From contig NZ_MRDL01000054.1 of the NCBI RefSeq assembly GCF_002008365.1, positions 1 through 64,000 of the forward strand: a stretch of DNA of 64,000 nt, given 5' to 3'. Source of the stretch: Rhizobium leguminosarum bv. viciae USDA 2370 (GTDB lineage Bacteria > Pseudomonadota > Alphaproteobacteria > Rhizobiales > Rhizobiaceae). The notes below the pieces were generated by a model. That model made no database searches. It was not told where the DNA came from and saw nothing but the letters and a program-made list of their open reading frames with translations. Each line of letters opens with the position of its first letter. Within the stretch, counting starts at the first letter, position 1. The position numbers and the translations under genes were made by a program. Positions 15,085 to 37,275 of the stretch are shown piece after piece.

Positions 15085-15470
15085 AGCCCAAACCCCTCGC
15101 ATATGGCGCTTCCGGATGCAAGATCGGCCTTGCCGTTGAGCGCGGCCGATCACCCGACTTCCCTCGTATATTAGCTGCATTGAGTGAAGCTTGAGAGGCG
15201 GATGAGAGGCGTATTGGTGGTAAAGCGTTGAAAGTGATTAATCATTTGTTACTTTGAAGAATACTTGCGTAATTATTTTGGATAGCTGGAATTTTTCAAG
15301 TTGACCTTGGCGGAAGTCGTTGTATTGTTTTAATAGTAATTCGGTATCTGGAGAGTAACTACAAAGTTATTCATGTATGGACGCTCAGTTTCATGAATAT
15401 CCAGAGCGGATAACGGAGGCATGCAGTGCATAAATAATCAAAAGACTAAATACATGGGAAGGAGTTTGTA
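15085..15470. promoter_or_regulatory. AT-rich promoter region of the polysaccharide operon
   Basis: 386 bases without a supported gene. Bases 15230-15450 are markedly AT-rich and precede the five-gene plus-strand operon by a typical distance; GGAAGGAG lies just before its first ATG. In S. meliloti the equivalent promoter is, from memory, activated by the AraC-type c-di-GMP receptor CuxR. No such gene is in this window, and no binding site can be named. Confidence 0.45.
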
Positions 15471-22243: not shown

Positions 22244-22332
22244 GATATTCCTCCTTGTCCCAACTGCCCGCTGCCATCCTCCAACGGCATTATCGAGCAC
22301 TTCGGCAAACAGATTACGCAAAAAAAATTTTA

Positions 22333-22359
22333 TTGCAAGAAGCAACCATTTTCTTGCAA
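22333..22359. promoter_or_regulatory. candidate LacI-type operator in divergent promoter region
   Basis: Perfect 9-bp inverted repeat TTGCAAGAA / TTCTTGCAA with a 9-base spacer, followed by the direct repeat TTTGCATTATTTGCAT (22360-22375). It lies between the divergent binding-protein and LacI-family genes, about 90 and 29 bases from their starts. Confidence 0.55.
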
Positions 22360-22387
22360 ATTTGCATTATTTGCATAATGTTTGCCT

Positions 22388-23416
22388 ATGAACGACCAAA
22401 AGATCAGACGGCCGCGTCAGGCCGATATAGCCACATTGGCCGGCGTTTCCGTTTCCACGGTGTCGCGCGTGCTCGCCAACGAACCTGGTATCAGCGATAC
22501 CGTCCGGCGCCAGATATTGAAGGTGGCAGCCGAGAACGGCTATCCCGTCAAACCGGCTTCCGAAGCCGTTGCCGGCGGGCTGGCGTTGATTGCCAGCGAC
22601 GGCGTCACCGGCACTCTCAGCGTCTTCTATGAAGCGATCGTCGACGGCCTGCGCGCCGGCGCTGCGGAAGCGGGCATGCCCTTCGACGTCCGGCTGGTCC
22701 GCGAAGATCGTATCACGCCGGATGCCGTGCGCGACTATATGCAGACCGCGGGAGCTGAAGGTCTCTTTCTCGTCGGTATCGATCCGAACGAGACGTTGCG
22801 TGGCTGGCTGCAAGCCAGCATGACACCGACCGTTCTTGTCAACGGCACCGATCCAAGGATGCAGTTTGACGGCGTTTCGCCGGCTAATTTCTTTGGCGCC
22901 TACGAGGCCACCCGCCGGCTGACCGAGGCCGGCCATCGTCGGATCCTGCATCTGAGTGGCTCCCACCGCCACACGATCCGGGAGCGCGTGCGCGGCTTCG
23001 AGGCGGCGATCGCCGCCGTCCCCGGCGCAGAGGGCCGTCTCGTGTCCCTGACCCTTGACGGCAGCGCCAGCCGGGAGGCGCATGAACGCACCGCCGCCGC
23101 ACTTGCCGAGGATGCCGGTTTTACCGCCGCTTTCTGTATGAATGATTTTATCGCCGTCGGCGTGCTCGAAGCCGTCACCGAGGCCGGGCTGCGTGTGCCG
23201 GAGGATTTCGCGATTGTCGGTTTCGACGATCTGCCCTGCGCGCTGATGACAAGTCCGCAGCTTTCCACCATGCGCGTCGACCGCGCTGCCCTCGGGCGCG
23301 AAGCCGTTTCGCTGATGCTGTCCCGCTTCCGCAACAGGACGGCCGCTGCGCGCCATATCTGCCAGGCGGTCATTCCCATTCCGGGAGGAACCGTTCCGAA
23401 CATCGAAAACCCGTGA
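22388..23416 (+). CDS. LacI/GalR-family transcriptional regulator
   Basis: 342 aa from the ATG at 22388; an in-frame TTG at 22382 is the alternative. The N-terminal HTH is typical (ADIATLAGVSVSTVSRVLAN), with hinge and periplasmic-binding-like effector domain (GVTGTLSVFYEAIVDGLRAG, AFCMNDFIAVGVLEA, IVGFDDLPCA). It is adjacent (0-base gap) to the DUF2264 gene and divergent from the binding-protein gene, so it most likely represses both in response to a sugar. The ligand cannot be assigned from sequence. Confidence 0.9.
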   Translation: MNDQKIRRPRQADIATLAGVSVSTVSRVLANEPGISDTVRRQILKVAAENGYPVKPASEAVAGGLALIASDGVTGTLSVFYEAIVDGLRAGAAEAGMPFDVRLVREDRITPDAVRDYMQTAGAEGLFLVGIDPNETLRGWLQASMTPTVLVNGTDPRMQFDGVSPANFFGAYEATRRLTEAGHRRILHLSGSHRHTIRERVRGFEAAIAAVPGAEGRLVSLTLDGSASREAHERTAAALAEDAGFTAAFCMNDFIAVGVLEAVTEAGLRVPEDFAIVGFDDLPCALMTSPQLSTMRVDRAALGREAVSLMLSRFRNRTAAARHICQAVIPIPGGTVPNIENP

Positions 23417-25282
23417 GTGATGCCGATGACCTATGATCCCGCCAGCGCCAACCCGCTCGCAGGCAATCCGCTGGAAACCCGCGCCGATATGAGCCGTGCG
23501 CTGCTTGCGCTCTTTGATCCGCTGCTTGCCTGTTTCTCGAACGGCAATGCCCGCGTCACCCTCAATGGCGGCGGCGCCCATTTCGACCGGGCAGCGGCCG
23601 ATCTCGAAGGGTTCGCCCGCCCGCTCTGGGGATTAGCGCCGCTTGGCGCAGGCAAGGGCGACTTCGCCCATTGGCATCGTTTCGCCGAGGGTCTCGCAAA
23701 TGGCACCGATCCCGCCCATCCGGAATATTGGGGAACGGTCAATGGCCGCGATCAGCGGATGGTTGAGCTTGCCGCTCTCGGTTTTGCCCTGGCGCTGGTG
23801 CCCGAAAAAATCTGGGAACCGCTCGATGCGCGCGCCCGCAGCAATGTCGTCGCCTATCTCAAGCATGTCAGGCAGTTCGATTATGCTGACAACAACTGGA
23901 AATTCTTCCGGATCTTCGTCGATATCGCGCTCGATCGTCTCGGCGCCGATTTCGACCGCAGCCTGACGCGGCAATATCTTGAGGAGCTCGAAGGCTTTTA
24001 TATCGGCGACGGCTGGTATCGCGACGGAAACGTGCGCCGTATCGACCACTACATTCCCTTCGCCATGCATTTCTATGGCCTGATCTATTCGAAGCTCGTC
24101 GATGACGATTATGCAAAGCGCTACCGCGAGCGCGCGGTCCTCTTCGCCCGGGATTTCCGGCACTGGTTTGCCGCTGACGGGGCGACGATCCCCTTCGGCC
24201 GCAGCCTGACCTATCGTTTTGCCTGCGCCGGCTTCTGGTCCGCGCTCGCCTTTGCCGATGTCGAGGCTCTGCCCTGGGGCGAGGTCAAGCATCTCTGCCT
24301 GCAGCATCTGCGCTGGTGGAAGGACAAGCCGATTGCCGATCGCGACGGCGTGCTGTCGATCGGCTTCGGCTATCCGAACCTGCTGATGTCGGAGAGTTAC
24401 AATTCCGCCGGCTCGCCCTACTGGGCCTTCAAGGCCTTCCTGCCGCTGGCGATCGCTGAGGATCACCCATTCTGGACGGCGAAGGAAAAAGTGCCGGAGC
24501 AGGCGCCTGACATCGTTCCCCAGCGTCATCCCGGCATGGTGATCATGCGGGCGGGCGGCGATGTCGTGGCGCTGTCTTCCGGCCAGGAAAACCTGCAGAT
24601 GCGGTGCGGCACGGAAAAATATGCGAAGTTTGCTTATTCCGCTCGATACGGCTTCAGTGTCGAGGCCGATGAGCGTGCCTTTGCGCTTGCCGCCTTCGAT
24701 TCAGCGCTTGCCTTCAGCGATGACGGCCTTCACTACCGCGTGCGCGAAACGAACGAGGAAGCCAGGCTCGCAGGTGACGTGCTCTATGCGAAGTGGTCGC
24801 CTTTCCCAGATGTCGACGTCGAAACCTGGCTCGTGCCGGTCGCACCCTGGCACATCCGCTTCCACCGGATCAGGACAAGCCGGCCGTTGCGGATTGCCGA
24901 AGGCGGATTTGCCATCGGCCGCCGGGATTTCGAGCTGGATACGCTATCCGCGTCGAATGGGGTTGCCTATGCGATCGGCGAAGCCGATTTCACCGGCATT
25001 CTCGATCTCGGCTCTTCGGTCAAACGTTCGGGGCTTGTCCAGAAGGCAATGCCCAACACCAATGTGATCGTCGCGAAAACCCTCGTGCCGCAGCTGCGCG
25101 GGCAGATTTCGGCCGGTGAAACCATCCTGGTGACGGCAGTGCTGGCACTTGACGATCCCGCTGCTGTCTCGTCTGTCTGGACGAACCCGCCGAAAGCGCC
25201 TGACATTGCAGCGCTGGAGGCCCTAGTGAAGGAAAAGGGCGTGACAGTCAGCGCCATCGAAGCGCCGGGACAGATGCCATGA
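23417..25282 (+). CDS. DUF2264 family protein (putative glycan-processing)
   Basis: 621 aa, no signal peptide, so cytosolic. The DUF2264 pattern is clear: NPLETRADMSRALLALFDPL, HWHRFAEGLANGTDPAHPEY, NNWKFFRIFVDIALDRLGA and DGWYRDGNVRRIDHYIPFA. These fit an (alpha/alpha)6-barrel N-terminal half followed by a beta-rich half. Such genes are commonly found near pectin or uronate utilisation genes, but the activity is not established to my knowledge. The start may be GTG 23417 or ATG 23420 or 23426. The stop overlaps the next gene by 4 bases. Confidence 0.85.
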   Translation: MMPMTYDPASANPLAGNPLETRADMSRALLALFDPLLACFSNGNARVTLNGGGAHFDRAAADLEGFARPLWGLAPLGAGKGDFAHWHRFAEGLANGTDPAHPEYWGTVNGRDQRMVELAALGFALALVPEKIWEPLDARARSNVVAYLKHVRQFDYADNNWKFFRIFVDIALDRLGADFDRSLTRQYLEELEGFYIGDGWYRDGNVRRIDHYIPFAMHFYGLIYSKLVDDDYAKRYRERAVLFARDFRHWFAADGATIPFGRSLTYRFACAGFWSALAFADVEALPWGEVKHLCLQHLRWWKDKPIADRDGVLSIGFGYPNLLMSESYNSAGSPYWAFKAFLPLAIAEDHPFWTAKEKVPEQAPDIVPQRHPGMVIMRAGGDVVALSSGQENLQMRCGTEKYAKFAYSARYGFSVEADERAFALAAFDSALAFSDDGLHYRVRETNEEARLAGDVLYAKWSPFPDVDVETWLVPVAPWHIRFHRIRTSRPLRIAEGGFAIGRRDFELDTLSASNGVAYAIGEADFTGILDLGSSVKRSGLVQKAMPNTNVIVAKTLVPQLRGQISAGETILVTAVLALDDPAAVSSVWTNPPKAPDIAALEALVKEKGVTVSAIEAPGQMP

Positions 25283-26289
25283 GCCAGCCGGCCATCGTCT
25301 TTGCCATGCAACCGTCGCGCACGGAGCATGTGCTGCCGGATGAGGTCCTGCGCCGGCTGAGTGGCATCGGTCGCCTGCTGGATCCCAAACCGCTGCAGCG
25401 CTTCGACGACGAGCGTGCGAGACGTCTGCTGGCCCAAGCCGAAATCCTGATCACCGGCTGGGGCGGGCCCTATGTCGGGCCCGAAATCCTCGCCGCCGCG
25501 CCGCATCTTAAGCTCATCGTCCATGCGGCGGGCACGGTCAAAGGCGTCATAGACGACGCCATCTTCGAAGCCGGTATCCCGGTCAGCCATTCGGCCGAGG
25601 CCAATGCCGTGCCGGTGGCCGAATTCACGCTGGCGGCGATCATCTTCGCCGGCAAGCGCGTTTTCCGTTTCCGCGATCTCTACGTCGCCGATCGAAACCG
25701 CAACCGCACCCATCCGATGCAGCGCGAAGCGATCGGAAATTACCGCCGCACCGTTGGCATCGTCGGCGCTTCGCGCATCGGCCGGCGCGTCATCGAGCTC
25801 TTGAAACCCTTTGATTATAGACTGCTGCTCGCCGATCCGACGCTTGATGCCGCCGAGGCAGCCGGCCTCGGAACGGAAAAGGTCGATCTCGACGAACTGA
25901 TGCGGCAAGCGGACATCGTTTCCCTGCATGCGCCGTCGCTGCCGTCGACGCGGCATATGATCGATGCGCGAAGGCTGTCGCTGATGAAGGACGGCGCGAC
26001 GCTCGTCAACACGGCGCGCGGCATTCTCATCGATGAGGCCGCGCTGCTTTCGACGCTCAAGACCGGCCGTATCGACGCGGTCCTCGATGTCACCGATCCG
26101 GAGATCCCGGAGGCGGGTTCTGCTTTCTACGATCTGCCGAACGTCTTTCTGACACCGCATATTGCCGGCGCTATCGGATTGGAACGGGCGCGCCTCGGCG
26201 AGATGGCCGTGGACGAGATCGAGCGCTTCGTGACCGGTCAGCCGCTGCTCTACCAGATCCATCAGGCAAATCTCGAAAACATCGCCTGA
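25279..26289 (+). CDS. D-2-hydroxyacid dehydrogenase family protein
   Basis: 336 aa NAD(P)-dependent dehydrogenase. The Rossmann loop is GIVGASRIGRRV, with Ala-Ser in place of the second and third Gly-containing positions of GxGxxG. The catalytic triad is seen as Arg in NTARGILIDE, Glu in DVTDPEIPE and His in TPHIAGA. It overlaps the DUF2264 gene by 4 bases, so the products probably act in one route on a sugar-acid intermediate. The substrate is unknown. It converges with the minus-strand oxidoreductase at 26319. Confidence 0.85.
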   Translation: MSQPAIVFAMQPSRTEHVLPDEVLRRLSGIGRLLDPKPLQRFDDERARRLLAQAEILITGWGGPYVGPEILAAAPHLKLIVHAAGTVKGVIDDAIFEAGIPVSHSAEANAVPVAEFTLAAIIFAGKRVFRFRDLYVADRNRNRTHPMQREAIGNYRRTVGIVGASRIGRRVIELLKPFDYRLLLADPTLDAAEAAGLGTEKVDLDELMRQADIVSLHAPSLPSTRHMIDARRLSLMKDGATLVNTARGILIDEAALLSTLKTGRIDAVLDVTDPEIPEAGSAFYDLPNVFLTPHIAGAIGLERARLGEMAVDEIERFVTGQPLLYQIHQANLENIA

Positions 26290-26318: not shown

Positions 26319-27596
26319 TCAGCGCGACGTCCTCAGCGAATTTGGCGAACCGTCATTGGCAAGTTCGGGCATGAGATCGGCAATGTTGACCAACTTGCCG
26401 GTGCGCGAACTCGTCAGCGCGGCAATGCCGCAAAGCACGGACATGGCGCCCGCCCGCGTGCCGGCGCGCTGGGCGAGCCTGTCTTCAATATCGGGTTTGA
26501 AAATCATATTGCGCATCCGGTCGTCGCCGCCGTAGTGGCCGCCTGTGAAATGCGGAACGACGATGCGCTCCACCGCCTCTTTGCCGTTCGGGAAATTGCG
26601 GATGAGGAGGATGGTGTCCTCCTTCGGCTCTTCCCAGGGCTGGGCCTCATATTGACGAAGCTCAATGCGCCCTTTGGTGCCGTTGAAGGCAAGGTGATGG
26701 CCTTCGATCGGTTGGAAGGTGTTCAGCGAATAAGAGACATGGACGTTGTTGCGGTAACGGAGCGACACCACCATCGTATCAGGAATGTCGATGTCCTCGC
26801 GGAAGACGCAGCCGTCTCGGAAGTAGCCGTCGATCTTCGAGGGATCCTCGTAGAGTGAATCGAGGAAGGGATCTGCCTCGAGATCGAGGTAGTAGTCGCA
26901 TTCATGCGTGTGCGGACAGAGCTTGCAGCGCGGGCCGCGGAACGGGCCCTTGCGACCGTAATTCTGCAAGTCGGCGAAGGAGGTGACGGCGTCGGGATCG
27001 CTGTCGAGATACCAATTCAGCAGATCGAAATGATGGGTCGCCTTGTGGACGAACAGACTGCCGGAATTTTCCGTATAGGCATGCCAGCGGCGGAAGTAGT
27101 CGGCGCCGTGCTTGGAGTTCAGATACCAGTGGAAGTCGACCGAGGTGACCCGGCCGATTTCGCCGGCATTCAGCAGTTCCTTGATCTTCGCAGCCGTCGG
27201 CGCATAGCGATAGTTGAAGGACACGTCGACCCGGCGACCCGTGCGCTTTTCGGCATCCAGAATCCGGCGAATCTTTTCGACCGAGGTCGTCATTGGCTTT
27301 TCGGTAATGACGTCGATGCCGGACTCCAGCGCCCGCACGACAATGTCGTCATGCGTATGGTCGGGCGTACAGACGATGACCAGATCCGGCTTCTGCTCGT
27401 TGAGCATCGAATCGATGTTTTCGTAGAGCGGTGCATTGCTGCCGATCATGTTACGCGCGCGTTCCCCGCGCAGCGAATTCTTCTCGACGATCGCGGTCAG
27501 GTCGACATGCTCGCGCCAGCCGGCAAGCAGATCCTTGCCCCACATGGTGGTGCCGCGGTTTCCCGTACCGATCAGGGCAAAACGGCGTTTTTCCAT
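26319..27596 (-). CDS. Gfo/Idh/MocA-family oxidoreductase (first copy)
   Basis: 425 aa. The N-terminal NAD(P) site is ALIGTGNRGTTMWG; EKPMTTSVEKIRR holds the family EKP Lys; the second domain includes VDFHWYLNSKHGADYFRRWH. An unusual Cys/His set, CKLCPHTHECDY, may bind a metal. The start at 27596 follows GGAGGATCATTCG and is preferred over 27614. The 154-base gap to the isomerase gene contains a palindromic element, so it may be a separate transcript. The substrate is unknown; members oxidise or epimerise sugars, inositols or glycosides. Confidence 0.87.
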   Translation of the reverse strand: MEKRRFALIGTGNRGTTMWGKDLLAGWREHVDLTAIVEKNSLRGERARNMIGSNAPLYENIDSMLNEQKPDLVIVCTPDHTHDDIVVRALESGIDVITEKPMTTSVEKIRRILDAEKRTGRRVDVSFNYRYAPTAAKIKELLNAGEIGRVTSVDFHWYLNSKHGADYFRRWHAYTENSGSLFVHKATHHFDLLNWYLDSDPDAVTSFADLQNYGRKGPFRGPRCKLCPHTHECDYYLDLEADPFLDSLYEDPSKIDGYFRDGCVFREDIDIPDTMVVSLRYRNNVHVSYSLNTFQPIEGHHLAFNGTKGRIELRQYEAQPWEEPKEDTILLIRNFPNGKEAVERIVVPHFTGGHYGGDDRMRNMIFKPDIEDRLAQRAGTRAGAMSVLCGIAALTSSRTGKLVNIADLMPELANDGSPNSLRTSR

Positions 27597-27644
27597 CGAA
27601 TGATCCTCCTGCATGCGTGATGAAACAAATACTGAAAATCAGGC

Positions 27645-27754
27645 CTAAAGCGCGTCGCGATCTTTCAGATTCGCGTGGCCCGCGCTTCAGGTCTTTGGTT
27701 TTTCGCACATCATGGTCGCAAAACCGCTGCACACTTTTGTGCGACACGCTTTAG
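27645..27754. repeat. intergenic palindromic mosaic element
   Basis: Flanked by a 13-base inverted repeat (CTAAAGCGCGTCG at 27645; CGACACGCTTTAG at 27742; 12 of 13 pairing). Inside are a hairpin around 27655-27677 and the GTCGCAAAACCGCTGCACAC core at 27715-27745. Its right end supplies the TAA stop of the isomerase gene. Confidence 0.7.
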
Positions 27755-28575
27755 CAGCAGCTCCTGAAGCGCTCGACGCAGGTGGCGATCACTTCCTCGG
27801 CCGGGCGTTTCCACCAGTTTTCGGCCGAAAAGATTTCCACCTCCTGCGCGCCGAAGAAACCGGCGGTCTCCACCATCCGTCTTATGCCTTTGAGGTCGAT
27901 CACACCATCGCCCATCATGCCGCGGTCGAGCAGCATGTCCTTTGTCGGCACCAGCCAGTCGCAGATATGATGGGCAAAGATGCGTTTCATGCGCCCGGCG
28001 CGGGCAATCTGGTTGGCAAGATCGGGGTCCCACCAGACGTGATAGACATCGACAGCAACGCCGACATCCTCCCCGAGCTGCTCGCACATGTCGAGCGCCT
28101 GGCCGAGTGTATTCACGCAGGCACGGTCGGCGGCATACATTGGATGCAGCGGCTCGATAGCGAGCTTTACACCCGAGGCCTGCGCATGCGGCATTACGGC
28201 GGCGATGCCGTCGAACACCATCTGGCGGGCGGCGACGATGTCCTTCGAACTGCCCGGCAGGCCGCCGACGACGAGCACGAGGCAATCGGCTGAAAATGCC
28301 GCCGCTTCGTCGATGGCACGCCTGTTGTCGTCGAGATTTTTCTGCCAGTCGGCATCGTTTGCCGCCGGGAAGAAGCCGCCGCGGCAAAGCCCGGTCAGCT
28401 TGATGCCGTTGGATTTGACGATACGCACCGCTTCATCGAGACCGACCTTGGCAACCTGGTCGCGCCAGGGCGCGATCGCGGTGATGCCGTGTTTCAGGCA
28501 GATATCGACGGCCTGGGCAAAGCCGCACTGTTCGCGGATCGTCGCCAGATTGATCGAAAGCCCTTCGACCTGCAT
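27751..28575 (-). CDS. sugar phosphate isomerase/epimerase (TIM barrel, IolE-like)
   Basis: 274 aa xylose-isomerase-like TIM barrel. Metal-site residues fit the family: Glu in LAIEPLHPMYAADRA, Asp in VAVDVYHVWWDPDLA, His in IFAHHICDW and Glu in EVEIFSAENWW. Such enzymes epimerise or dehydrate keto-sugars and often pair with Gfo/Idh/MocA dehydrogenases, as here. It lies 28 bases after the DUF993 gene in a minus-strand operon headed by the oxidoreductase at 30919. Its stop codon lies within the palindromic element. Confidence 0.87.
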   Translation of the reverse strand: MQVEGLSINLATIREQCGFAQAVDICLKHGITAIAPWRDQVAKVGLDEAVRIVKSNGIKLTGLCRGGFFPAANDADWQKNLDDNRRAIDEAAAFSADCLVLVVGGLPGSSKDIVAARQMVFDGIAAVMPHAQASGVKLAIEPLHPMYAADRACVNTLGQALDMCEQLGEDVGVAVDVYHVWWDPDLANQIARAGRMKRIFAHHICDWLVPTKDMLLDRGMMGDGVIDLKGIRRMVETAGFFGAQEVEIFSAENWWKRPAEEVIATCVERFRSCC

Positions 28576-28603: not shown

Positions 28604-29767
28604 TCAGTTGACGCCGTGGACGGCGAGCACTTGACGCATGCGGCTTGCAGCAAGTTCGGGATCTGCCAGAACCCGTGCCTTGTCGGCCAGGCGGAAGAGT
28701 TCGGCCAGATGCGTCAGCGAGCGGGTGCTCTGCTGGCCGCCGACCATGACAAAATGGTCCTGCAGGCCGTTGAGATAGGCGAGGAAGACGACGCCGGTCT
28801 TGTAGAAGCGGGTCGGCGCCTTGAAGATGTGGCGCGACAGCGGCACGGTCGGCTCCAGCAGATCGAAGAATTCATGGTTGCTTTTGCGGCCGAGCGCTTC
28901 GAGGGCTGCCGAGGCTGCCGGCGCGATCGCATCGAAAATGCCGAGCAGCGCGTCGGAATGGCCTTCTTCGTCGCCGGCAATCAGTTCGGCATAGTTGAAA
29001 TCGTCGCCGGTATACATGCGCACGCCTTTCGGCAACCGGCGGCGCATCGCCACTTCCTTCTCCTTGGAGAGCAGCGAGATCTTGATGCCGTCGACCTTGT
29101 CGGCATGGGCTTCGATCACCTCAAGGCAGGTGGACATGGCTTGGATATGATCACCATTGCCCCAATAACCCTCGAGTGCCGGATCGAACATTTCCCCGAG
29201 CCAATGGATGATGACGGGTTCCCTGACCTGGCGGAGGATGCGGTCATAGACGCTTACATAGTCGTCCGGTCCTTTGGCGGCGGCGGCAAGCGCCCGGCTT
29301 GCCATCAGGATGATGCGGCCGCCGGCCGCCTCCACCGTTTCGATCTGCTCCTCATAGGCCCTGAGGATCGTGTCGATAGTGACGTCAGGTCCCGGCGTCA
29401 GATGGTCGGTGCCGGCGCCGCAGGCGATCAGCGCGTCCTTGCGGCCGGCCGCCTCACTGAGCGCCCGGCGGATGAGGTCGCGCGCATCCGGCCAGCCGAG
29501 GCCCATGCCGCGCTGCGCCGTATCCATCGCTTCGGCAACGCCGAGGCCGAGATCCCAGAGCCGATGGCGGAAGGCGAGCGTCCGCTCCCAATCGATCGCC
29601 GGTGTCAGCCACGGATCGTTGTCGGCGAGCGGATCGGCGACGACATGGGCCGCGGCAAAGGCGATGCGTGGAAAGGCCTTGGCGTCGCGCTTGGCGAGCG
29701 CGATCGGCGTGCCTGTCAGCGTGTAGGGAACGATCTTGCCGTCAAGAGGGAGATTGATCGTCGTCAC
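28604..29767 (-). CDS. DUF993 family protein (dihydrodipicolinate-synthase-like aldolase)
   Basis: 387 aa. The DUF993 family has a DapA-type barrel. Visible segments include GTDHLTPGPDVTIDTILRAYEEQI, shown here only in part as GAGTDHLTPGPDVT, then VIIHWLGEMFDPALEGYWG and VDGIKISLLSKEKE, where Lys in GIKIS is the candidate Schiff-base residue. It starts 3 bases after the oxidoreductase gene. An aldolase or retro-aldol step on a dehydrogenated sugar is plausible; the reaction is not known to me. Confidence 0.84.
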   Translation of the reverse strand: MTTINLPLDGKIVPYTLTGTPIALAKRDAKAFPRIAFAAAHVVADPLADNDPWLTPAIDWERTLAFRHRLWDLGLGVAEAMDTAQRGMGLGWPDARDLIRRALSEAAGRKDALIACGAGTDHLTPGPDVTIDTILRAYEEQIETVEAAGGRIILMASRALAAAAKGPDDYVSVYDRILRQVREPVIIHWLGEMFDPALEGYWGNGDHIQAMSTCLEVIEAHADKVDGIKISLLSKEKEVAMRRRLPKGVRMYTGDDFNYAELIAGDEEGHSDALLGIFDAIAPAASAALEALGRKSNHEFFDLLEPTVPLSRHIFKAPTRFYKTGVVFLAYLNGLQDHFVMVGGQQSTRSLTHLAELFRLADKARVLADPELAASRMRQVLAVHGVN

Positions 29768-29770
29768 GGC

Positions 29771-30919
29771 TCAGAACTCCAGTGCGGGAACATCGAGCCA
29801 GCGGCGCTCGGCCCATGATTTCAGGCCGAGTTCGGCAAGCTGTACGCCCTTGGCGCCGGCTTCCAGGCCATAGGGCCACGGCGCATCTTCGACGACATGG
29901 CGGATGAACATTTCCCACTGGGCCTTGAAGCCGTTGTCGAATGGCTGCGTGTCAGGAACCTCGTCCCAGGTCTTGTAGAAGTCGATCGTTTGCGGCTGGT
30001 CCGGGTTCCAGACTGGCTTCGGCGTGTTGACGCGGTGCTGGCTCCAGCATTTCGTCAGGCCGGCGACGGCCGAACCATGTGTGCCGTCGACCTGGAAGGT
30101 GACGAGGTCGTCGCGGCGGACGCGAACGGCCCAGGAGGAATTGATCTGCGCGATCGCGCCGCCTTCGAGCTCGAAGGTCGCATAGGCCGCATCGTCCGTG
30201 TCGCAATCATAGGGCTTGCCCTGCTCGTCGATGCGCTGGCCGATATGAGTGGCGCCGAGGCAGGAGACAGCCTTGACCTCCCCGAACAGATTGTCGAGCA
30301 CGTAGCGCCAGTGGCAGAGCATGTCGAGAATGATGCCGCCGCCGTCGCCTTTACGGTAGTTCCAGGACGGGCGCTGAGCCGGCACGCCCCAATCGCCTTC
30401 GAAAACCCAGTAGCCGAATTCGCCGCGCACCGAGAGGATCTTGCCGAAGAAGCCGGAATCCCTGAGCAGCGCCAGCTTGCGCAGGCCGGGCAGGAAGAGC
30501 TTGTCCTGCACGACGCCGTGCTTGAGGCCGGAGCCGCGCGCCTTGCGCGCAAGGTCGAGTGCCACCTGCAGATCGTCGGAGATCGGCTTTTCGCAATAGA
30601 CATGCTTGCCGGCATCGAGCGCCTTGGACAGCAGCTCGGCTCGCATCAGCGTCGTGCCTGCGTCGAAGAAGATCGTGTCGTCGGGATTGGCAAGAGCCGC
30701 ATCGAGATCGGTCGACCAGCGCTTGATGCCGTGCTTCTTCGCCAGCTCGTCCATCTTGGCGCCGTTGCGGCCGACGATGATCGGGTCGATCTCGAGTTTC
30801 TCGCCCGATTTGAGCGTGATGCCGCCCTGGTCGCGGAAAGCGAGAATCGAACGCACCAGGTGCTGATTGTACCCCATGCGGCCGGTGACGCCGTGCAAGA
30901 TGATCCCCAAGCGTGCCAT
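29771..30919 (-). CDS. Gfo/Idh/MocA-family oxidoreductase (second copy)
   Basis: 382 aa. The start at 30919 follows GGGAGGAAAAA and gives MARLGIILHGVTGRMGYN with the nucleotide-binding loop. YCEKPISDDLQVALDLA carries the family EKP motif. First gene of the minus-strand operon 30919-27751. It is preceded by a perfect 16-bp palindrome at 30982-30997 that closely resembles one upstream of the divergent transporter operon, which suggests control by the TetR-family protein at 31062. Confidence 0.88.
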   Translation of the reverse strand: MARLGIILHGVTGRMGYNQHLVRSILAFRDQGGITLKSGEKLEIDPIIVGRNGAKMDELAKKHGIKRWSTDLDAALANPDDTIFFDAGTTLMRAELLSKALDAGKHVYCEKPISDDLQVALDLARKARGSGLKHGVVQDKLFLPGLRKLALLRDSGFFGKILSVRGEFGYWVFEGDWGVPAQRPSWNYRKGDGGGIILDMLCHWRYVLDNLFGEVKAVSCLGATHIGQRIDEQGKPYDCDTDDAAYATFELEGGAIAQINSSWAVRVRRDDLVTFQVDGTHGSAVAGLTKCWSQHRVNTPKPVWNPDQPQTIDFYKTWDEVPDTQPFDNGFKAQWEMFIRHVVEDAPWPYGLEAGAKGVQLAELGLKSWAERRWLDVPALEF

Positions 30920-30981
30920 TTTTTCCTCCCAGCAATCTTTTGCGGCGGGAGCGGGCATCCTGGCCCGGCCCTCCCAAGCCG

Positions 30982-30997
30982 GTAACTAAACAGTTAC
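30982..30997. promoter_or_regulatory. palindromic operator of the minus-strand arm
   Basis: GTAACTAAACAGTTAC has perfect 6-bp arms around AAAC. On the minus strand a TTGACA (31027-31022), an 18-base spacer and CATCAA end exactly where the palindrome begins. A binding protein would therefore block initiation. Confidence 0.7.
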
Positions 30998-31061
30998 TTG
31001 ATGGCAGAAGATCGGAGCGGCTGTCAAGAGTCAAATCCGATTTTCGAGATCAGGAAAGGCT

Positions 31062-31739
31062 CTAGCGCTTGATCGAGGCGAGCGTGACGTGGACGATATG
31101 CCTCTCCCAGGCATTGAGATGGGTCGGCTCGATCAGGTCGCGGCCGAAGATCGTCGACAGCGTGTACTGGTTGGAAAGGTAGAAATAACCGAGCGAGGCG
31201 ATCGTGAGGTAGACATGCAGGGGATCGGCGGTCTGGATGAAGACGCCCTGCTTCTTTCCCTGCTCGAGCACTTGAGAAAGCTCGCCGATCAAATGCGAAT
31301 GCAGTTCCTTGAGCCGGACGGACTGACGCAGCCAGCGGGCGCGATGCAGATTTTCCGTGCCGAGCAGGCTGAGAAATTCCGGATGCTGGAGAAAATAACG
31401 CCAGGTGAAGAGTGCCAGTTCGCCGATGCCTTCCTCCGGGCTGCGGTCGCCGATATGAAGCGCGCGCTCGGCGGTGCGGATGCCGACATAGGCTTCTTCG
31501 AGCACCTTGAGGTAGAGCTGCTCCTTGTCGCCGAAATAATGATAGAGCATCCGCTTGTTGGTGCCAGCGCGCTCGGCGATCGCATCGACGCGAGCCCCAC
31601 CCATGCCGTTTTCAGCGAATTCCCGGGTTGCCGCTTCGAGGATCGCAGCGCGTGTCCGCTCCGGATCGCGGTGGGCCGCCCGTTCCGCGACCGGGCGTCG
31701 AGACCGTTTCTTTGCCCCCTTCTCCCCGCTGTCGTTCAT
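31062..31739 (-). CDS. TetR-family transcriptional regulator
   Basis: 225 aa. The HTH is canonical (ILEAATREFAENGMGGARVD, then IAERAGTNKRMLYHYFGDKE). The larger C-terminal domain is ligand-binding. GGAGGTGGAGAG precedes the ATG at 31739. The gene sits between the oxidoreductase operon and the ABC importer operon. Matching palindromes before each (30982, 31860) make it the best candidate for their common repressor, responding to the imported sugar or a metabolite. The basic N-terminal run KKRSRR is normal for the family. Confidence 0.9.
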   Translation of the reverse strand: MNDSGEKGAKKRSRRPVAERAAHRDPERTRAAILEAATREFAENGMGGARVDAIAERAGTNKRMLYHYFGDKEQLYLKVLEEAYVGIRTAERALHIGDRSPEEGIGELALFTWRYFLQHPEFLSLLGTENLHRARWLRQSVRLKELHSHLIGELSQVLEQGKKQGVFIQTADPLHVYLTIASLGYFYLSNQYTLSTIFGRDLIEPTHLNAWERHIVHVTLASIKR

Positions 31740-31829
31740 CTCTCCACCTCCGTCTTCACATGTTGCGCTCATAAGCCTTCGGTGCGAAATTGTAAAAACC
31801 GAATTTGAACGGCCCGCGAGCGACACCGC

Positions 31830-31859
31830 TTGACACGCTCGCCGCTTTGCCCGTAGCTT
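31830..31859 (+). promoter_or_regulatory. candidate promoter of the ABC importer operon
   Basis: TTGACA (31830-31835), an 18-base spacer and TAGCTT (31854-31859), immediately followed by the palindrome at 31860. Spacing and order are the same as on the minus-strand arm. Confidence 0.55.
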
Positions 31860-31875
31860 GTAACCAATTAGTTAT
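31860..31875. promoter_or_regulatory. palindromic operator of the importer arm
   Basis: GTAACCAATTAGTTAT matches the 30982 palindrome at 12 of 16 positions and keeps the GTAAC/GTTA arms. A further half-site, GTAACTAGGTT, starts at 31886. Confidence 0.6.
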
Positions 31876-31936
31876 TTATGCAAGGGTAACTAGGTTCGGA
31901 AGCGTGTGGAGGCGCTTCCCTTTGGAGGAGGAAAAA

Positions 31937-33223
31937 ATGAGCCTACGTGTAAGCAGACGTAATTTCGTTGCGGGAGGAGCGACGCTTCTTTCGCTCTCGG
32001 CGCTGGGAACCAGCGCTTTGGCACAGGAAACGCGCCTGCGTCTCCTGTGGTGGGGCTCGCAGCCGCGCGCCGATCGCACCAACAAGGTATCGCAGCTCTA
32101 TCAGACGAAGAAGCCGGGCACGTCGATCACCGGCGAATTCCTCGGCTGGGGCGACTACTGGCCGCGCCTTGCGACCCAGGTCGCCGGCCGCAACGCGCCC
32201 GATGTCATCCAGATGGACTATCGCTATATCGTCCAGTATGCGCGGCGCGGCGCGCTCGCCCCGCTCGAATCCTATATGCCGGCCAAGCTCAACCTCGACG
32301 ATTTCGACAAGGCGCAGATCGAAGGCGGCAGTGTCGACGGCCACCTCTACGGCGTCAGCCTCGGGGCGAATTCGGCGGCCACGGTCCTGAACACCACTGC
32401 CTTCAAGGAGGCCGGCGTCGATCTGCCGACCCAGGCAACCACCTGGGAAGAATTCGGCCGCATCGGTGCGGAGATCACCAAGGCGGGCAAACGCAAGGGC
32501 ATGTTCGGCATGGCCGACGGCAGCGGCGGTGAACCACTGTTCGAAAATTGGCTGCGTCAGCGCGGCAAGGCGCTTTATACTGCCGACGGCAAGATCGCCT
32601 TCGGCGTGGACGATGCCTCGGAATGGTACGACATGTGGGCCAAGTTCCGGGCTGCCGGCGCCTGCGTTCCTGCCGATGTCCAGGCCCTCGATAAGAACGA
32701 TATCGAAACCAACACGATATCGCTCGGCAAGTCGGCCGCTGGTTTCGCCCATTCCAACCAGTTCGTCGCCTATCAGGCAATGAACAAGGACAAGCTGGCG
32801 CTGACCAACTACATGCGGGTCAAGGCGGATTCGAAGGGCGGCCACTACCGCAAGCCGTCGATGTTCTTCTCGGTCTCCGCCCAGTCGAAAGCTGTGGACC
32901 TGGCCGTGGACTACGTCAATTTCTTCGTCAAGGACCCTGAGGCAGCGCTGCTTCTGGATGTCGAACGCGGCATTCCCGAATCGAGCGCCATGCGTGAGGT
33001 CGTCGCGGCGAAGCTCGACGAGAACGGCAAGATTGCGCTGGCCTATGTCAGCGGCCTTGGCGAACTCGCCGGCAAATTGCCGCCGCCACCGCCCGCCGGC
33101 GCCGGTGAAGGCGAGCTGACCCTACGCAACATCGCCGAACAAGTGGCCTTTGGACAGGTATCTCCTTCCGATGGCGGCAAACAGCTTGTCGATGAAATCA
33201 CGCAGATTCTCGCACGAGGCTGA
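31937..33223 (+). CDS. ABC sugar-binding protein (family 1), Tat signal
   Basis: 428 aa. Twin-Arg signal SRRNFVAGGATLLSLSALGT with cleavage after ALA near residue 29. The mature protein is similar along its length to the orphan binding protein at 20957 and has the same length. AGGAGGAAAAA fixes the ATG at 31937, upstream of which the frame remains open to 31805. First gene of an operon with two permeases, an oxidoreductase and an ATPase. An oligosaccharide or modified sugar is the likely ligand. Confidence 0.92.
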   Translation: MSLRVSRRNFVAGGATLLSLSALGTSALAQETRLRLLWWGSQPRADRTNKVSQLYQTKKPGTSITGEFLGWGDYWPRLATQVAGRNAPDVIQMDYRYIVQYARRGALAPLESYMPAKLNLDDFDKAQIEGGSVDGHLYGVSLGANSAATVLNTTAFKEAGVDLPTQATTWEEFGRIGAEITKAGKRKGMFGMADGSGGEPLFENWLRQRGKALYTADGKIAFGVDDASEWYDMWAKFRAAGACVPADVQALDKNDIETNTISLGKSAAGFAHSNQFVAYQAMNKDKLALTNYMRVKADSKGGHYRKPSMFFSVSAQSKAVDLAVDYVNFFVKDPEAALLLDVERGIPESSAMREVVAAKLDENGKIALAYVSGLGELAGKLPPPPPAGAGEGELTLRNIAEQVAFGQVSPSDGGKQLVDEITQILARG

Positions 33224-33229
33224 TCCCGT

Positions 33230-34189
33230 ATGAGCAATGCGATGCGCACGCCCGCAGGGGCCATAAATGTGGAAAGATATCAGGGGGCCGTGGCCGAAGG
33301 ACGCTTCAGGCGTCTCTGGAATGCCAATGCTCCCGGCTATCTCTTCCTTCTTCCGTGGCTCATCGGCTTTTTCGGGCTGACGCTCGGGCCGGCCCTGATT
33401 TCGCTCTACCTCTCCTTCACCGACTTCGACATGCTGCAGTCGCCGAGGTGGGTGGGAATGGCGAATTATGTGCGCATCGCCACGGCCGATCCGAAATTCT
33501 CGGCCGCCATGCACGTCACTCTGACTTATGTCGTCTTCTCGGTGCCGTTCAAACTGACCTTCGCCTTGCTGGTCGCCATGGCCCTGAACCGCGGCCTGCG
33601 TGGGCTGTCGATCTACCGCGCCATCTTCTATCTCCCCTCATTGCTGGGCGGCAGCGTGGCGATCGCCGTGCTCTGGCGTCAGCTTTTCGCCAGCGATGGC
33701 CTCGTCAATGCCGCACTCTCGCATTTCGGCATCGAAGGCCCAAGCTGGATCTCGCATCCGAACTATTCGATCTACACGCTGGTGGCTCTGTCCGTCTGGC
33801 AGTTCGGCTCGCCGATGATTATTTTCCTGGCCGGCCTGCGCCAGATCCCGCAGGATATGTATGAGGCCGCCAGCCTCGACGGCGCCTCGAAGTTCCGGCA
33901 ATTCTACAAGATCACGCTGCCACTTCTGACCCCGGTGATCTTCTTCAACGCCGTCGTCCAGACGATTGAAGCCTTCAAGGCATTCACACCAGCCTTCATC
34001 ATCTCCGGCGGCACGGGCGGTCCGATCAATTCGACGCTCTTCTACACGCTCTACCTCTATCAGGAAGCCTTCGGCAATTTCCGCATGGGCTACGCCTCGG
34101 CACTCGCCTGGATCCTGGTGGTGATCATCGCGATCTTCACCGCCTTCTCCTTCCTGACCTCACGTTATTGGGTGCACTACGATGACTGA
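33230..34189 (+). CDS. ABC sugar permease, MalF-type
   Basis: 319 aa, six predicted helices starting at LFLLPWLIGFFGLTLGPAL. The EAA loop (YEAASLDGASKFRQFYKITL) that contacts the ATPase is present near residue 220. It starts 6 bases after the binding-protein gene and overlaps the second permease by 8 bases. Confidence 0.93.
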   Translation: MSNAMRTPAGAINVERYQGAVAEGRFRRLWNANAPGYLFLLPWLIGFFGLTLGPALISLYLSFTDFDMLQSPRWVGMANYVRIATADPKFSAAMHVTLTYVVFSVPFKLTFALLVAMALNRGLRGLSIYRAIFYLPSLLGGSVAIAVLWRQLFASDGLVNAALSHFGIEGPSWISHPNYSIYTLVALSVWQFGSPMIIFLAGLRQIPQDMYEAASLDGASKFRQFYKITLPLLTPVIFFNAVVQTIEAFKAFTPAFIISGGTGGPINSTLFYTLYLYQEAFGNFRMGYASALAWILVVIIAIFTAFSFLTSRYWVHYDD

Positions 34190-35069
34190 GATGACCGCTT
34201 CCGTCACTGCGGCCAGGCCGCCATCCGACATCACCAAACGCAGCCTGCCTGCGTCGCTCATCATCCACGCCCTGCTGATCGCCGCTTCACTTCTCATGCT
34301 CTATCCGCTGTTGTGGATGGTTTCGGCATCGGTAAGGCCGGAAAACGAGATCTTCTCGTCGACCTCGCTCATCCCGTCGTCGATCGATCTCTCCTCCTAT
34401 GCGCGCGGTTGGGTCGGTCTCGATGTCAGCTTCGGCCGGTTCTTCTGGAATTCGCTCGTCATTTCGCTGCTGGTGGTGACGGGTAATGTCATCGCCTGTT
34501 CGCTGACCGCCTTCGCCTTCGCGCGGCTGCGTTTTGCCGGCCGGAACTTCTGGTTCGCGATCATGCTCGGCACGTTGATGATCCCCTACCATGTGACGCT
34601 GATCCCGCAATATGTACTCTTCCTCAACCTCGGCTGGGTGAACACCATCCTGCCGCTTGTTGTGCCGAAGTTCCTGGCAAGCGATGCCTTCTTCATCTTC
34701 CTCATGGTGCAGTTCTTCCGCGGCATCCCGCGCGAACTCGATGAGGCGGCGATGATGGATGGCTGCAGCGCTTGGCGCATCTATTGGAAGATCATGCTGC
34801 CGCTATCGCTGCCGGTTTTGGCAACGGCCGCCATCTTCTCCTTCATCTGGACCTGGGACGATTTCTTCGGTCCGCTGATCTACCTGAACGATATGAACAC
34901 CTACACGATCCAGCTCGGCCTGCGCACTTTCGTGGATTCCACCAGTGCATCGGATTGGGGCGGTTTGTTCGCCATGTCGACCCTGACGCTCGTGCCGGTC
35001 TTCTTCTTCTTCCTGTTCTTCCAGCGCCTGCTGATCGAGGGCATCGCCACAACGGGCATGAAGCGTTGA
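34182..35069 (+). CDS. ABC sugar permease, MalG-type
   Basis: 295 aa, six helices. The EAA motif is DEAAMMDGCSAWRIYWKIML near residue 186. A basic N-terminus (TKRSLPASL) leads into the first helix (about 26-47). It forms the heterodimeric channel with the product of 33230. Its TGA shares one base with the ATG of the next gene. Confidence 0.93.
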   Translation: MTEMTASVTAARPPSDITKRSLPASLIIHALLIAASLLMLYPLLWMVSASVRPENEIFSSTSLIPSSIDLSSYARGWVGLDVSFGRFFWNSLVISLLVVTGNVIACSLTAFAFARLRFAGRNFWFAIMLGTLMIPYHVTLIPQYVLFLNLGWVNTILPLVVPKFLASDAFFIFLMVQFFRGIPRELDEAAMMDGCSAWRIYWKIMLPLSLPVLATAAIFSFIWTWDDFFGPLIYLNDMNTYTIQLGLRTFVDSTSASDWGGLFAMSTLTLVPVFFFFLFFQRLLIEGIATTGMKR

Positions 35070-36166
35070 TGGCGATAACGGGAAAGAGCGACATGAGCAT
35101 CAGGACGGTCGCGATCGTTGGTTGCGGTATCGGCCGCTCCCATATCGTCGAGGGTTACCTGCCGCATTCCGACAAGTTCAAGGTCGTGGCGATCTGCGAC
35201 CTGAACGAGCAGCGCATGGCAGCGGTCGGCGACGAGTTCGGCATCGAACGACGCACGACTTCCTTCGCGGAACTGCTGGCCGACGACACGATCGACATCA
35301 TCGATATCTGCACTCCTCCCGGCATCCATCTGGAACAGGTGGTCGCAGCCCTGGCTGCCGGTAAAAATGTCGTCTGCGAAAAGCCGCTGACGGGCTCGCT
35401 TGCCGCTGTCGATACCATCATGGCAGCGGAAAAGACCGCCAAAGGCGTGCTGATGCCGATCTTCCAGTACCGTTACGGCGACGGCATCCAGAAGGCCAAG
35501 CGGATCATCGACGCCGGTATTGCTGGCAAGCCCTATACCGCTTCGGTCGAAACCTTCTGGCTGCGCAAGCCGGAATATTACGCAGTGCCTTGGCGCGGCA
35601 AATGGGCGACGGAGCTCGGCGGCGTTCTCGTCACCCATGCGCTGCATCTGCACGACATGCTGATGCATCTGATGGGGCCTGCGGCAAGGGTCTTCGGCCG
35701 CGTCGCCACCCGTGTCAATGATATCGAGGTCGAGGATTGTGCCTCCGCCAGCCTGCTGATGGAAAACGGCGCCTTTGTCTCGCTTTCCTGCACCCTTGGT
35801 TCGCAGGAGCAGATTAGCCGGCTCAGGCTGCATTTCGAGAATGTCACTTTCGAAAGCAGCCACGAGCCCTATGCGCCAGGTAAGGATCCCTGGAAGATCA
35901 TCGCCGCGAATGACGACGTCCGGGAACAGATCGACAAGGTGGTTGGCGACTGGCAGCCGGTTGCGCCGCGTTTCACCACCCAGATGGGCCAGTTCCACGC
36001 CTTCCTCAGCGGCCATGCGCCGCTGCCGGTGACGACGGTCGATGCCCGCCGTGCGCTGGAACTCGTCACCGCCATCTACCAGTCTTCCGACAGCGGCGCT
36101 GACGTGCCGCTGCCGGTCGGCCCCGACAGTCCGAAATACGCCGATTGGCGCGCAAGAACGAAGTAA
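35069..36166 (+). CDS. Gfo/Idh/MocA-family oxidoreductase (third copy)
   Basis: 365 aa from ATG 35069; ATG 35093, with GGGAAAGAGC upstream, is the alternative. VAIVGCGIGRSHIVEG is the NAD(P) loop and CEKPLTGSLAAVD the EKP motif. TELGGVLVTHALHLHDM matches the family His-containing substrate segment. Embedded between the permease and ATPase genes, so it probably acts on the imported compound, in concert with the oxidoreductase of the divergent operon. Confidence 0.88.
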   Translation: MAITGKSDMSIRTVAIVGCGIGRSHIVEGYLPHSDKFKVVAICDLNEQRMAAVGDEFGIERRTTSFAELLADDTIDIIDICTPPGIHLEQVVAALAAGKNVVCEKPLTGSLAAVDTIMAAEKTAKGVLMPIFQYRYGDGIQKAKRIIDAGIAGKPYTASVETFWLRKPEYYAVPWRGKWATELGGVLVTHALHLHDMLMHLMGPAARVFGRVATRVNDIEVEDCASASLLMENGAFVSLSCTLGSQEQISRLRLHFENVTFESSHEPYAPGKDPWKIIAANDDVREQIDKVVGDWQPVAPRFTTQMGQFHAFLSGHAPLPVTTVDARRALELVTAIYQSSDSGADVPLPVGPDSPKYADWRARTK

Positions 36167-36198: not shown

Positions 36199-37275
36199 AT
36201 GGCAACCAGTGTCGTTCTTCAGAAGGTCGAGAAGCGCTACGGCGCGATGGATGTGATCCATGGCATCGACCTGACGATCGATCCCGGCGAATTCGTCGTT
36301 TTTGTCGGCCCCTCCGGCTGCGGAAAATCGACCCTTCTGCGCATGATCGCCGGTCTCGAGGAGATATCGGGCGGCGCGCTTTTGCTCGACAGCGAGCGCA
36401 TGAACGAGGTGGCGCCCGCCAAGCGCGGCATCGCCATGGTCTTCCAGTCCTATGCTCTCTATCCCCATATGTCGGTTTACAAGAACCTCGCCTTCGGCCT
36501 GGAGACGGCGGGTTACAAGAAGGCCGAGATCCAGCCGAAGGTGAAGCGCGCCGCCGAGATCCTGCAGATCGAGAAGCTGTTGGAGCGCAAGCCGAAGGCG
36601 CTCTCCGGCGGCCAGCGCCAGCGTGTCGCGATCGGCCGCGCCATCGTACGCGAGCCGCGGATATTCCTGTTCGACGAGCCGCTGTCGAACCTCGATGCCG
36701 AACTGCGCGTGCAGATGCGCGTCGAGATCTCCCGCCTGCACCGCAGCCTCGGCAATACGATGATCTATGTCACCCATGACCAGGTCGAAGCCATGACGAT
36801 GGCGGACAAGATCGTGGTGTTGAATTCCGGCCGTATCGAGCAGGTCGGCGCGCCGCTCGATCTCTATAACAATCCGGCCAACCGGTTCGTCGCCGGTTTC
36901 ATCGGCAGCCCGAAGATGAATTTCCTGAAGGCCCGCATCGAGCAGGTCGGCGAGGCCGAAACCAGCATCCATGTCTGCGGCAATTCCGTCCGCCTGCCGC
37001 GCCGCCTGAACGGCGGGGCGGGAGAGGACGTCACCTTCGGCATCCGTCCCGAGCATCTTTCGCTGGCCGAAGGTGCAATCGCGCTCTCGACCGTCAACGT
37101 CGATCTCGTTGAAAATCTCGGCGGCGCCACCATGCTCTACACCACCACGCCGGATAACCAGCTCCTGACCGTCGCGCTTGACGGCCAGCAGAAGGTGGAG
37201 CGCGGCGCCAATGTGAAGGCTTCCTTCGATCCGGCCCGCTGCCACGTCTTCGATGCCGCCGGCAAGACGATCTAA
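36199..37275 (+). CDS. ABC importer ATPase, MsmK/UgpC type
   Basis: 358 aa. Walker A GPSGCGKST, Q-loop VFQSYALYPHMSV, signature LSGGQRQR, Walker B FLFDEP and H-loop VTHDQ are all intact. The C-terminal TOBE/OB region (FGIRPEHLSLAEGAI) is typical of carbohydrate importers. The start at 36199 is preceded by GAGAGGG at a slightly long distance. Last gene of the importer operon; two palindromic elements follow at 37334 and 37397. It could also serve the orphan binding protein at 20957. Confidence 0.93.
   Translation: MATSVVLQKVEKRYGAMDVIHGIDLTIDPGEFVVFVGPSGCGKSTLLRMIAGLEEISGGALLLDSERMNEVAPAKRGIAMVFQSYALYPHMSVYKNLAFGLETAGYKKAEIQPKVKRAAEILQIEKLLERKPKALSGGQRQRVAIGRAIVREPRIFLFDEPLSNLDAELRVQMRVEISRLHRSLGNTMIYVTHDQVEAMTMADKIVVLNSGRIEQVGAPLDLYNNPANRFVAGFIGSPKMNFLKARIEQVGEAETSIHVCGNSVRLPRRLNGGAGEDVTFGIRPEHLSLAEGAIALSTVNVDLVENLGGATMLYTTTPDNQLLTVALDGQQKVERGANVKASFDPARCHVFDAAGKTI

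Follow-up and report, generated by a model that had tools for sequence, protein, structure and literature searches.

Equally spaced promoter-operator composites on both sides of a tetR gene of Rhizobium leguminosarum suggest one repressor for divergent uptake and breakdown operons

Does a single TetR-family repressor switch the two operons that are transcribed away from each other around its gene in Rhizobium leguminosarum bv. viciae USDA 2370? The question arises from a stretch of 64,000 nucleotides of this genome (contig NZ_MRDL01000054.1 of assembly GCF_002008365.1, positions 1 to 64,000; hereafter the window), for which an earlier note had pointed to two palindromes at either side of a tetR gene, each of them preceded by TTGACA, an 18-base spacer and a -10-like hexamer with the same geometry in both directions, and had proposed a divergon under the control of the TetR protein. 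Both palindromes do flank the gene (Table 1). The left one, GTAACTAAACAGTTAC in plus-strand letters, reads GTAACTGTTTAGTTAC on the minus strand, the right one is GTAACCAATTAGTTAT, and the two share a 16-bp form, RTAACY-N4-RGTTAY. The like geometry was confirmed as well, since TTGACA stands exactly 24 nt before each palindrome on opposite strands, which defines an uptake-side composite spanning 31830-31875 (+) and a breakdown-side composite spanning 31027-30982 (-). On the other hand, the -10-like hexamers with zero gap need some qualification: hexamers flush with both operators exist, but they are weak, and a promoter scan of the window reports neither TAGCTT nor CATCAA. Over the relatives, the operator-flush hexamer typically matches TATAAT at three of six positions, against a background mean of 1.13.

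Table 1. Features of the tetR locus, in positions of the window.
Feature	Coordinates	Strand	Evidence
Further Gfo/Idh/MocA oxidoreductase, probable end of breakdown arm	26319..27599	-	domain search; S. meliloti Ak57 order
Xylose-isomerase-like TIM barrel	27751..28575	-	PF01261
DUF993 protein	28604..29767	-	PF06187, 623 bits; relative's annotation 'dihydrodipicolinate synthase family'
Gfo/Idh/MocA oxidoreductase, first gene of breakdown arm	29771..30919	-	domain search
Operator, breakdown (oxidoreductase) arm, GTAACTGTTTAGTTAC on minus strand	30982..30997	-	site <600 nt of tetR in 72/80 loci (best 80 of 570 relatives)
Weak -10-like hexamer CATCAA, flush with breakdown-arm operator	30998..31003	-	sequence; 3/6 vs TATAAT
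Putative -35 box TTGACA, breakdown arm, 24 nt before operator	31022..31027	-	genome-wide scan; TTGAC spacing in relatives
TetR-family regulator, 225 aa	31062..31739	-	PF00440 HTH and PF17938 TetR_C_29
Putative tetR promoter: TTTACA 31796-31791, 16 nt, TTATGA 31774-31769	31769..31796	-	alignment, conservation only
Putative -35 box TTGACA, uptake arm, 24 nt before operator	31830..31835	+	genome-wide scan; TTGAC spacing in relatives
Weak -10-like hexamer TAGCTT, flush with uptake-arm operator	31854..31859	+	sequence; 3/6 vs TATAAT
Operator, uptake (ABC) arm, GTAACCAATTAGTTAT	31860..31875	+	sequence; site <400 nt of tetR in 70/80 loci (best 80 of 570 relatives)
Uptake-arm leader hairpin GGAAGCG[TGTGGAGG]CGCTTCC	31898..31919	+	folding, relatives' loop motif, pair counts
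Solute-binding protein, sugar-type ABC importer	31937..33223	+	PF01547/PF13416
ABC permease 1	33230..34189	+	PF00528
ABC permease 2	34182..35069	+	PF00528
Gfo/Idh/MocA oxidoreductase, uptake arm	35066..36166	+	domain search; under every NCBIfam cut-off
ABC ATPase, MalK/UgpC type	36199..37275	+	PF00005, PF17912, PF08402

How particular this arrangement is can be seen from a motif scan of the whole genome (7,807,522 bases), one of the checks that the earlier note had proposed. TTGACA-N24-RTAACYNNNNRGTTAY occurs perfectly at two places, both of them flanking tetR, against about 1e-4 expected composites in the genome (a first-order Markov estimate from the window). No place in the 7.8-Mb genome carries the composite with one or two mismatches, and with three there are 10 further places, the reversed control giving 11 at up to three. 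The palindrome by itself behaves differently. Its exact form GTAACYNNNNAGTTAY is found at three places in the genome, all inside the window (reversed control, 0), whereas with two mismatches it is no richer than the control, with 258 places (138+120) versus 749 (366+383), and in a survey of 90 genomes the exact form GTAACYNNNNRGTTAY often fails to outnumber its control. The distinctive element is the composite, and less so the palindrome alone.

Loci keeping both sites range from Rhizobium and Sinorhizobium to Burkholderiales. A search with the TetR protein in 150 related genomes, its own included, gave matches at E<=1e-30 in 104 of them. In a first set of 74 loci, made up of its own locus, 29 others from this search, 40 chosen stretches and 4 plasmid records (L001-L003, which repeat the window, were left out), 65 carried both sites, 4 one and 5 none. 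A second set, that of the named loci, comprised the best 80 of the 570 relatives found, with both sites in 68, one in 6 and none in 6, and extended as far as Pararobbsia alpina and a Burkholderiales MAG. With species in common, the two sets do not count as independent. Within the best 80 of 570 relatives, a site was located less than 400 nt from tetR on the uptake side in 70 loci, and less than 600 nt on the breakdown side in 72. TTGAC precedes the operator by 23 or 24 nt in 69 of those 70 uptake-side loci and by 21, 23, 24 or 25 nt in all 72 of the breakdown-side ones (24 in 61 of them), so that, with both arms pooled, 141 of 142 palindromes have TTGAC 21-25 nt ahead of them. As much of the stretch between TTGAC and the palindrome varies, the spacing accounts for a good deal of what is conserved. 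Eight more distant homologues (L066-L073, 45-54% identity) depart from this pattern, with a single site nearby in four and none in the other four. A further locus of 57% identity (L064) shows no site, although its contig runs out about 210 nt past the gene.

The protein encoded between the two composites has the N-terminal HTH of the TetR family (PF00440, 59.7 bits against a cut-off of 24) and an all-helical C-terminal ligand-binding domain (PF17938, 129 bits), with which the predicted fold (mean pLDDT 89.9), a match to TetR proteins, agrees. Its recognition helix would comprise approximately residues 62-69, KRMLYHYF, and residues N61-Y68 of the HTH are invariant over 31 aligned proteins, as expected if the operator is fixed. 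The closest folds to this model are RutR (structures 4xk4 and 4jyk, with TM-scores of 0.73-0.84 to the predicted fold and 27% identity) and the C. diphtheriae protein 3npi, both of them ordinary TetR proteins. RutR, the E. coli TetR-family repressor of pyrimidine use, also provides the best NCBIfam name, although the score is far from its curated cut-off (TIGR03613, 58 of 368 bits) and the targets here are a sugar-type importer and oxidoreductases. Moreover, the RutR operator, TTGACCA..TGGTCAA, differs from the palindromes of this locus.

We consider it very likely, from the sequence comparisons, that one TetR repressor controls both arms by covering the transcription start at two divergent operators. 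With TTGACA as the -35 box and a -10 region ending just before the palindrome, the start would fall inside the palindrome; the operator, beginning 24 nt after TTGACA, would thus lie from just behind the -10 region across the expected transcription start. We infer that a dimer of the regulator binds the two divergent promoters flanking its own gene and that the sign of control is repression, the bound protein blocking RNA polymerase at both of them. Without inducer, the rightward ABC importer operon and the leftward operon of oxidoreductase, DUF993 and TIM-barrel genes would both be off. The repressor would be released by the imported, sugar-like substrate or by one of its early products, and both arms would go on together. 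The tetR gene, for its part, would be expressed from a separate promoter left uncovered by the operator. The window shares the corresponding pair of hexamers with 31 of 33 relatives of >83% identity (L131 and L132 lack it). The distance between this pair and the operator is about 63 nt in the window and variable in these relatives, which argues that the operator does not cover the tetR promoter. With such a conserved, operator-free promoter, autoregulation is not indicated. In this regard, the divergon of the earlier note holds with a qualification: the same operator occurs at two divergent promoters, and two divergent target operons would be switched, but tetR itself appears to fall outside the operator cover, and no operator was found overlapping the regulator promoter, which is assigned by conservation only. 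The design looks like that of an independently made repressor switching two target operons, and not like a classic self-regulating divergon.

A promoter covered by the palindromic operator of a TetR repressor is a familiar arrangement, and so both the family and the logic are ordinary here. As in the local switches of TetR/AcrR regulators, we find the regulator between divergent targets and a short palindrome over the expected start. The differences lie in the two separate and equally spaced target operons, in the uncovered promoter of the regulator and in an uptake and breakdown regulon in place of efflux, the usual theme of TetR proteins. In contrast with the logic, the regulon and its substrate look undescribed. 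The two target operons are transcribed divergently, with tetR on the strand of the left, breakdown one, and a similar gene order is found in the annotation of S. meliloti Ak57, where the left arm has one gene more, for a mandelate racemase, and the right arm includes a second oxidoreductase. All three oxidoreductases, scanned against NCBIfam, fall below every curated cut-off, including those of levoglucosan and inositol dehydrogenase (the uptake-arm one with, for example, 101 of 355 and 88 of 650 bits). The NCBIfam names (inositol dehydrogenase, levoglucosan dehydrogenase, RutR) are so far under their cut-offs that they point to no particular substrate. The clusters of myo-inositol and levoglucosan dehydrogenases resemble this locus in their Gfo/Idh oxidoreductases, TIM barrel and sugar ABC importer and give the top NCBIfam names, yet well under the cut-offs, and DUF993 is extra here. 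In a full-text search of a partial library, from which most subscription-journal papers are missing, DUF993/PF06187 was named nowhere, and neither these operator letters nor guessed locus names of R. johnstonii 3841 were found. Farther to the left, the region 20957-26286 holds another solute-binding protein gene, 40% identical in its product to the protein encoded at 31937, with LacI, DUF2264 and 2-hydroxyacid dehydrogenase genes as neighbours and no permease gene seen adjoining it; this protein may borrow the permeases and the ATPase of the TetR-controlled operon.

Control of the uptake arm could have a second level. Its leader contains a hairpin that is a possible small-RNA or ribosome standby site, and this leader folds better than its shuffles (z -2.56, with 3 of 200 as good); an Rfam scan of 30700-32100 gave no match at E<=1. 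The loop motif TGTGGAGG, with its GGAGG, is kept in 38 of 70 named loci from the best 80 of 570 relatives. All 38 belong to the 40 loci whose TetR identity is 72% or more, the other two of these (L123 and L145) having a changed loop, and none to the 30 below, and a stem of six or more pairs accompanies it in 36 of the 38 loop-bearing loci. The hairpin core CGTGTGGAGGCG is unique in the genome. Covariation was analysed in 19 of the 43 distinct leader sequences, leaving out 19 near copies and five loop-less leaders (L054, L055, L057, L058 and L075) and shortening L077. Two of the seven pairs are changed on both sides, in 9 cells, a cell count reached by 0 of 500 shuffles, as are the paired cells and the covariation score; on the other hand, 99 of 500 shuffles have as many both-side-changed pairs, and 500 of 500 as many pair types, and in this alignment the Sinorhizobium rows stand one base out of register. 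As described in one publication, rhizobial small RNAs inhibit the translation of ABC transporter mRNAs, and AbcR1/2 of S. meliloti carry an anti-Shine-Dalgarno motif, CUCCUCCC, in a loop (PMC8844928). The genome studied here has three ar15 (AbcR) copies. One may then ask whether the hairpin shows its GGAGG to an AbcR (ar15)-type small RNA with an anti-Shine-Dalgarno motif, as a control added to that of TetR and as important. The nearly invariant loop in closer relatives, the covarying stem and the three ar15 copies speak in its favour, whereas the 30 more distant loci (from the best 80 of 570 relatives) do not have the hairpin. We judge a role of this weight unlikely and take the AbcR link as a lead only; with AbcR1/2 riboregulation the locus shares a GGAGG-rich leader in a binding-protein mRNA and the presence of ar15 copies in the genome. 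A possible hairpin of the breakdown-arm leader was discarded, as it folds no better than its shuffles (z -0.25, with 79 of 200 as good); many close relatives show its pattern, and L044-L048 are among those that do not.

Coming back to a single repressor for both operators, is TetR the protein that the sites belong to, or the mere neighbour of palindromes bound by a different regulator? Candidates for the latter could be the LacI-type protein encoded at 22382-23413, some 8 kb away from the tetR locus, or a ROK-type one, in view of the regulator-like ORF, different from TetR and ROK-type by eye only, that diverges from the paralogous oxidoreductase-DUF993 operons at L102, L103 and L104. TetR-type proteins, however, bind short palindromes, 68 of the best 80 of 570 relatives have tetR between the two sites, and the presence of composite and TetR goes together. 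A loose composite, TTGAC-N(21-26)-RTAACYNNNNRGTTAY, is present in 87 of 90 genomes of the genus, the own one included. It is missing from G030, G037 and G057, and these same three genomes, and no others of the 90, have no TetR match at E<=1e-30. The reversed control finds nothing in 89 of the 90 genomes and two places in G033, and some congener counts include matches at a conserved coding start. One of these three, G057, has neither TetR nor composite, yet keeps one bare palindrome. Six named loci of the best 80 of 570 have no site near tetR, and in five of them the target genes are also absent within about 4 kb. A whole-genome search for composites covered the genomes of L149, L156, L158, L161, L168, L175 and L185 and the three TetR-less congeners: nine composites appeared in five genomes (Chelativorans, Pelagibacterium) whose tetR has no site beside it, all nine preceding, and pointing at, an orthologue of the binding-protein or first-oxidoreductase gene. 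Where the targets no longer adjoin tetR, the sites thus track the target genes and not the neighbourhood of the regulator. No composite was detected in the genomes of L175 and L185, nor in G030, G037 and G057; the L175 genome keeps TetR and target genes, yet lacks a composite, and at L185 a bare palindrome, with no TTGAC before it, lies 19 nt from tetR. Moreover, three genomes in which just one TetR reaches E<=1e-30 (G008, G001 and G052) have on another contig a paralogous oxidoreductase-DUF993 operon that lacks a TetR of its own and bears the same composite, its spacing of 24 nt included. Many congeners have two or three TetR homologues, which makes the binder uncertain there, and the own genome has one. 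With these data, a regulator other than TetR seems very improbable to us. We give slightly less credit still to a TetR protein that binds and activates, as some members of the family do, or that acts mainly as an architectural factor, because an operator downstream of TTGACA and over the expected start, as in 141 of the 142 sites of the best 80 of 570 relatives, is in a blocking position. Chance palindromes next to ordinary promoters, which might be invoked from the 15 TTGACA of the window (both strands) and from a bare palindrome that with mismatches is no richer than its control, can be dismissed, given two composites where about 1e-4 were expected per genome, and are already contradicted by the conservation in relatives and the joint absence with TetR.

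That one repressor controls both arms, as the earlier note had suggested, thus finds comparative support in the conservation of the sites, their joint absence with TetR, their tracking of the target genes and the paralogous operon that lacks its own TetR, to which the sites themselves, their spacing and their rarity in the genome can be added, all of them read directly in the DNA. These operators offer a sharp, testable putative target for a TetR clade without an assigned function, and tie the DUF993 family to a regulated pathway of sugar-type import and breakdown that recurs in root-nodule bacteria; the identity of the inducer would name the nutrient, and the near-fixed spacing suggests that the promoter-operator pair could serve as a regulated promoter in rhizobia. 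A wider picture is conceivable, although we would bet rather against it than for it as a whole. This TetR clade of alpha- and some beta-proteobacteria would travel as a unit with a rigid promoter cassette (TTGACA, 21-25 nt and the 16-bp operator) and the DUF993 pathway, would define a catabolic route, so far undescribed, for a sugar from plants or soil and would regulate in trans a second, paralogous operon in some species, the Rhizobium/Sinorhizobium branch having gained RNA-level control through the GGAGG hairpin.

Some other matches and arrangements deserve a mention. Near a contig end of G010 (L196:4781-5003), two composites face apart with 131 nt between them, and no known target gene was found near them in the fetched stretch. 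At L197:10726-11972, two tetR homologues, 52% and 64% identical to that of the window, face each other at about 4 kb from an operator-bearing operon. A third loose composite of the genome (C64:122928), whose letters recur in congeners, spans the start codon of an ORF that is LysR-like by eye and was put down to chance. The same holds for GTAACTTTCGAGTTAT, present in several congeners, as it overlaps the stop codon of a 406-aa ORF, which we take to be elongation factor Tu. Finally, the third exact 16-mer of the window (15355-15370), before an epimerase/glycosyltransferase operon, was judged to be probably outside the regulon: the nearest TTGAC (TTGACC) lies 48 nt away, versus 24 at the composites. 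This site is matched in 25 of the 60 genus genomes searched, and an alignment of 20 sequences, among them that of the window, shows the GTAACTACAAAGTTAT form in 3, a GAATAACT beginning in 12 and GAATAACTCAAAAGTTATTC in 7. In many relatives it is a longer palindrome beginning with GAATAACT, at a different promoter spacing, to which some other regulator may bind, for instance the LuxR-type protein encoded at 13968.
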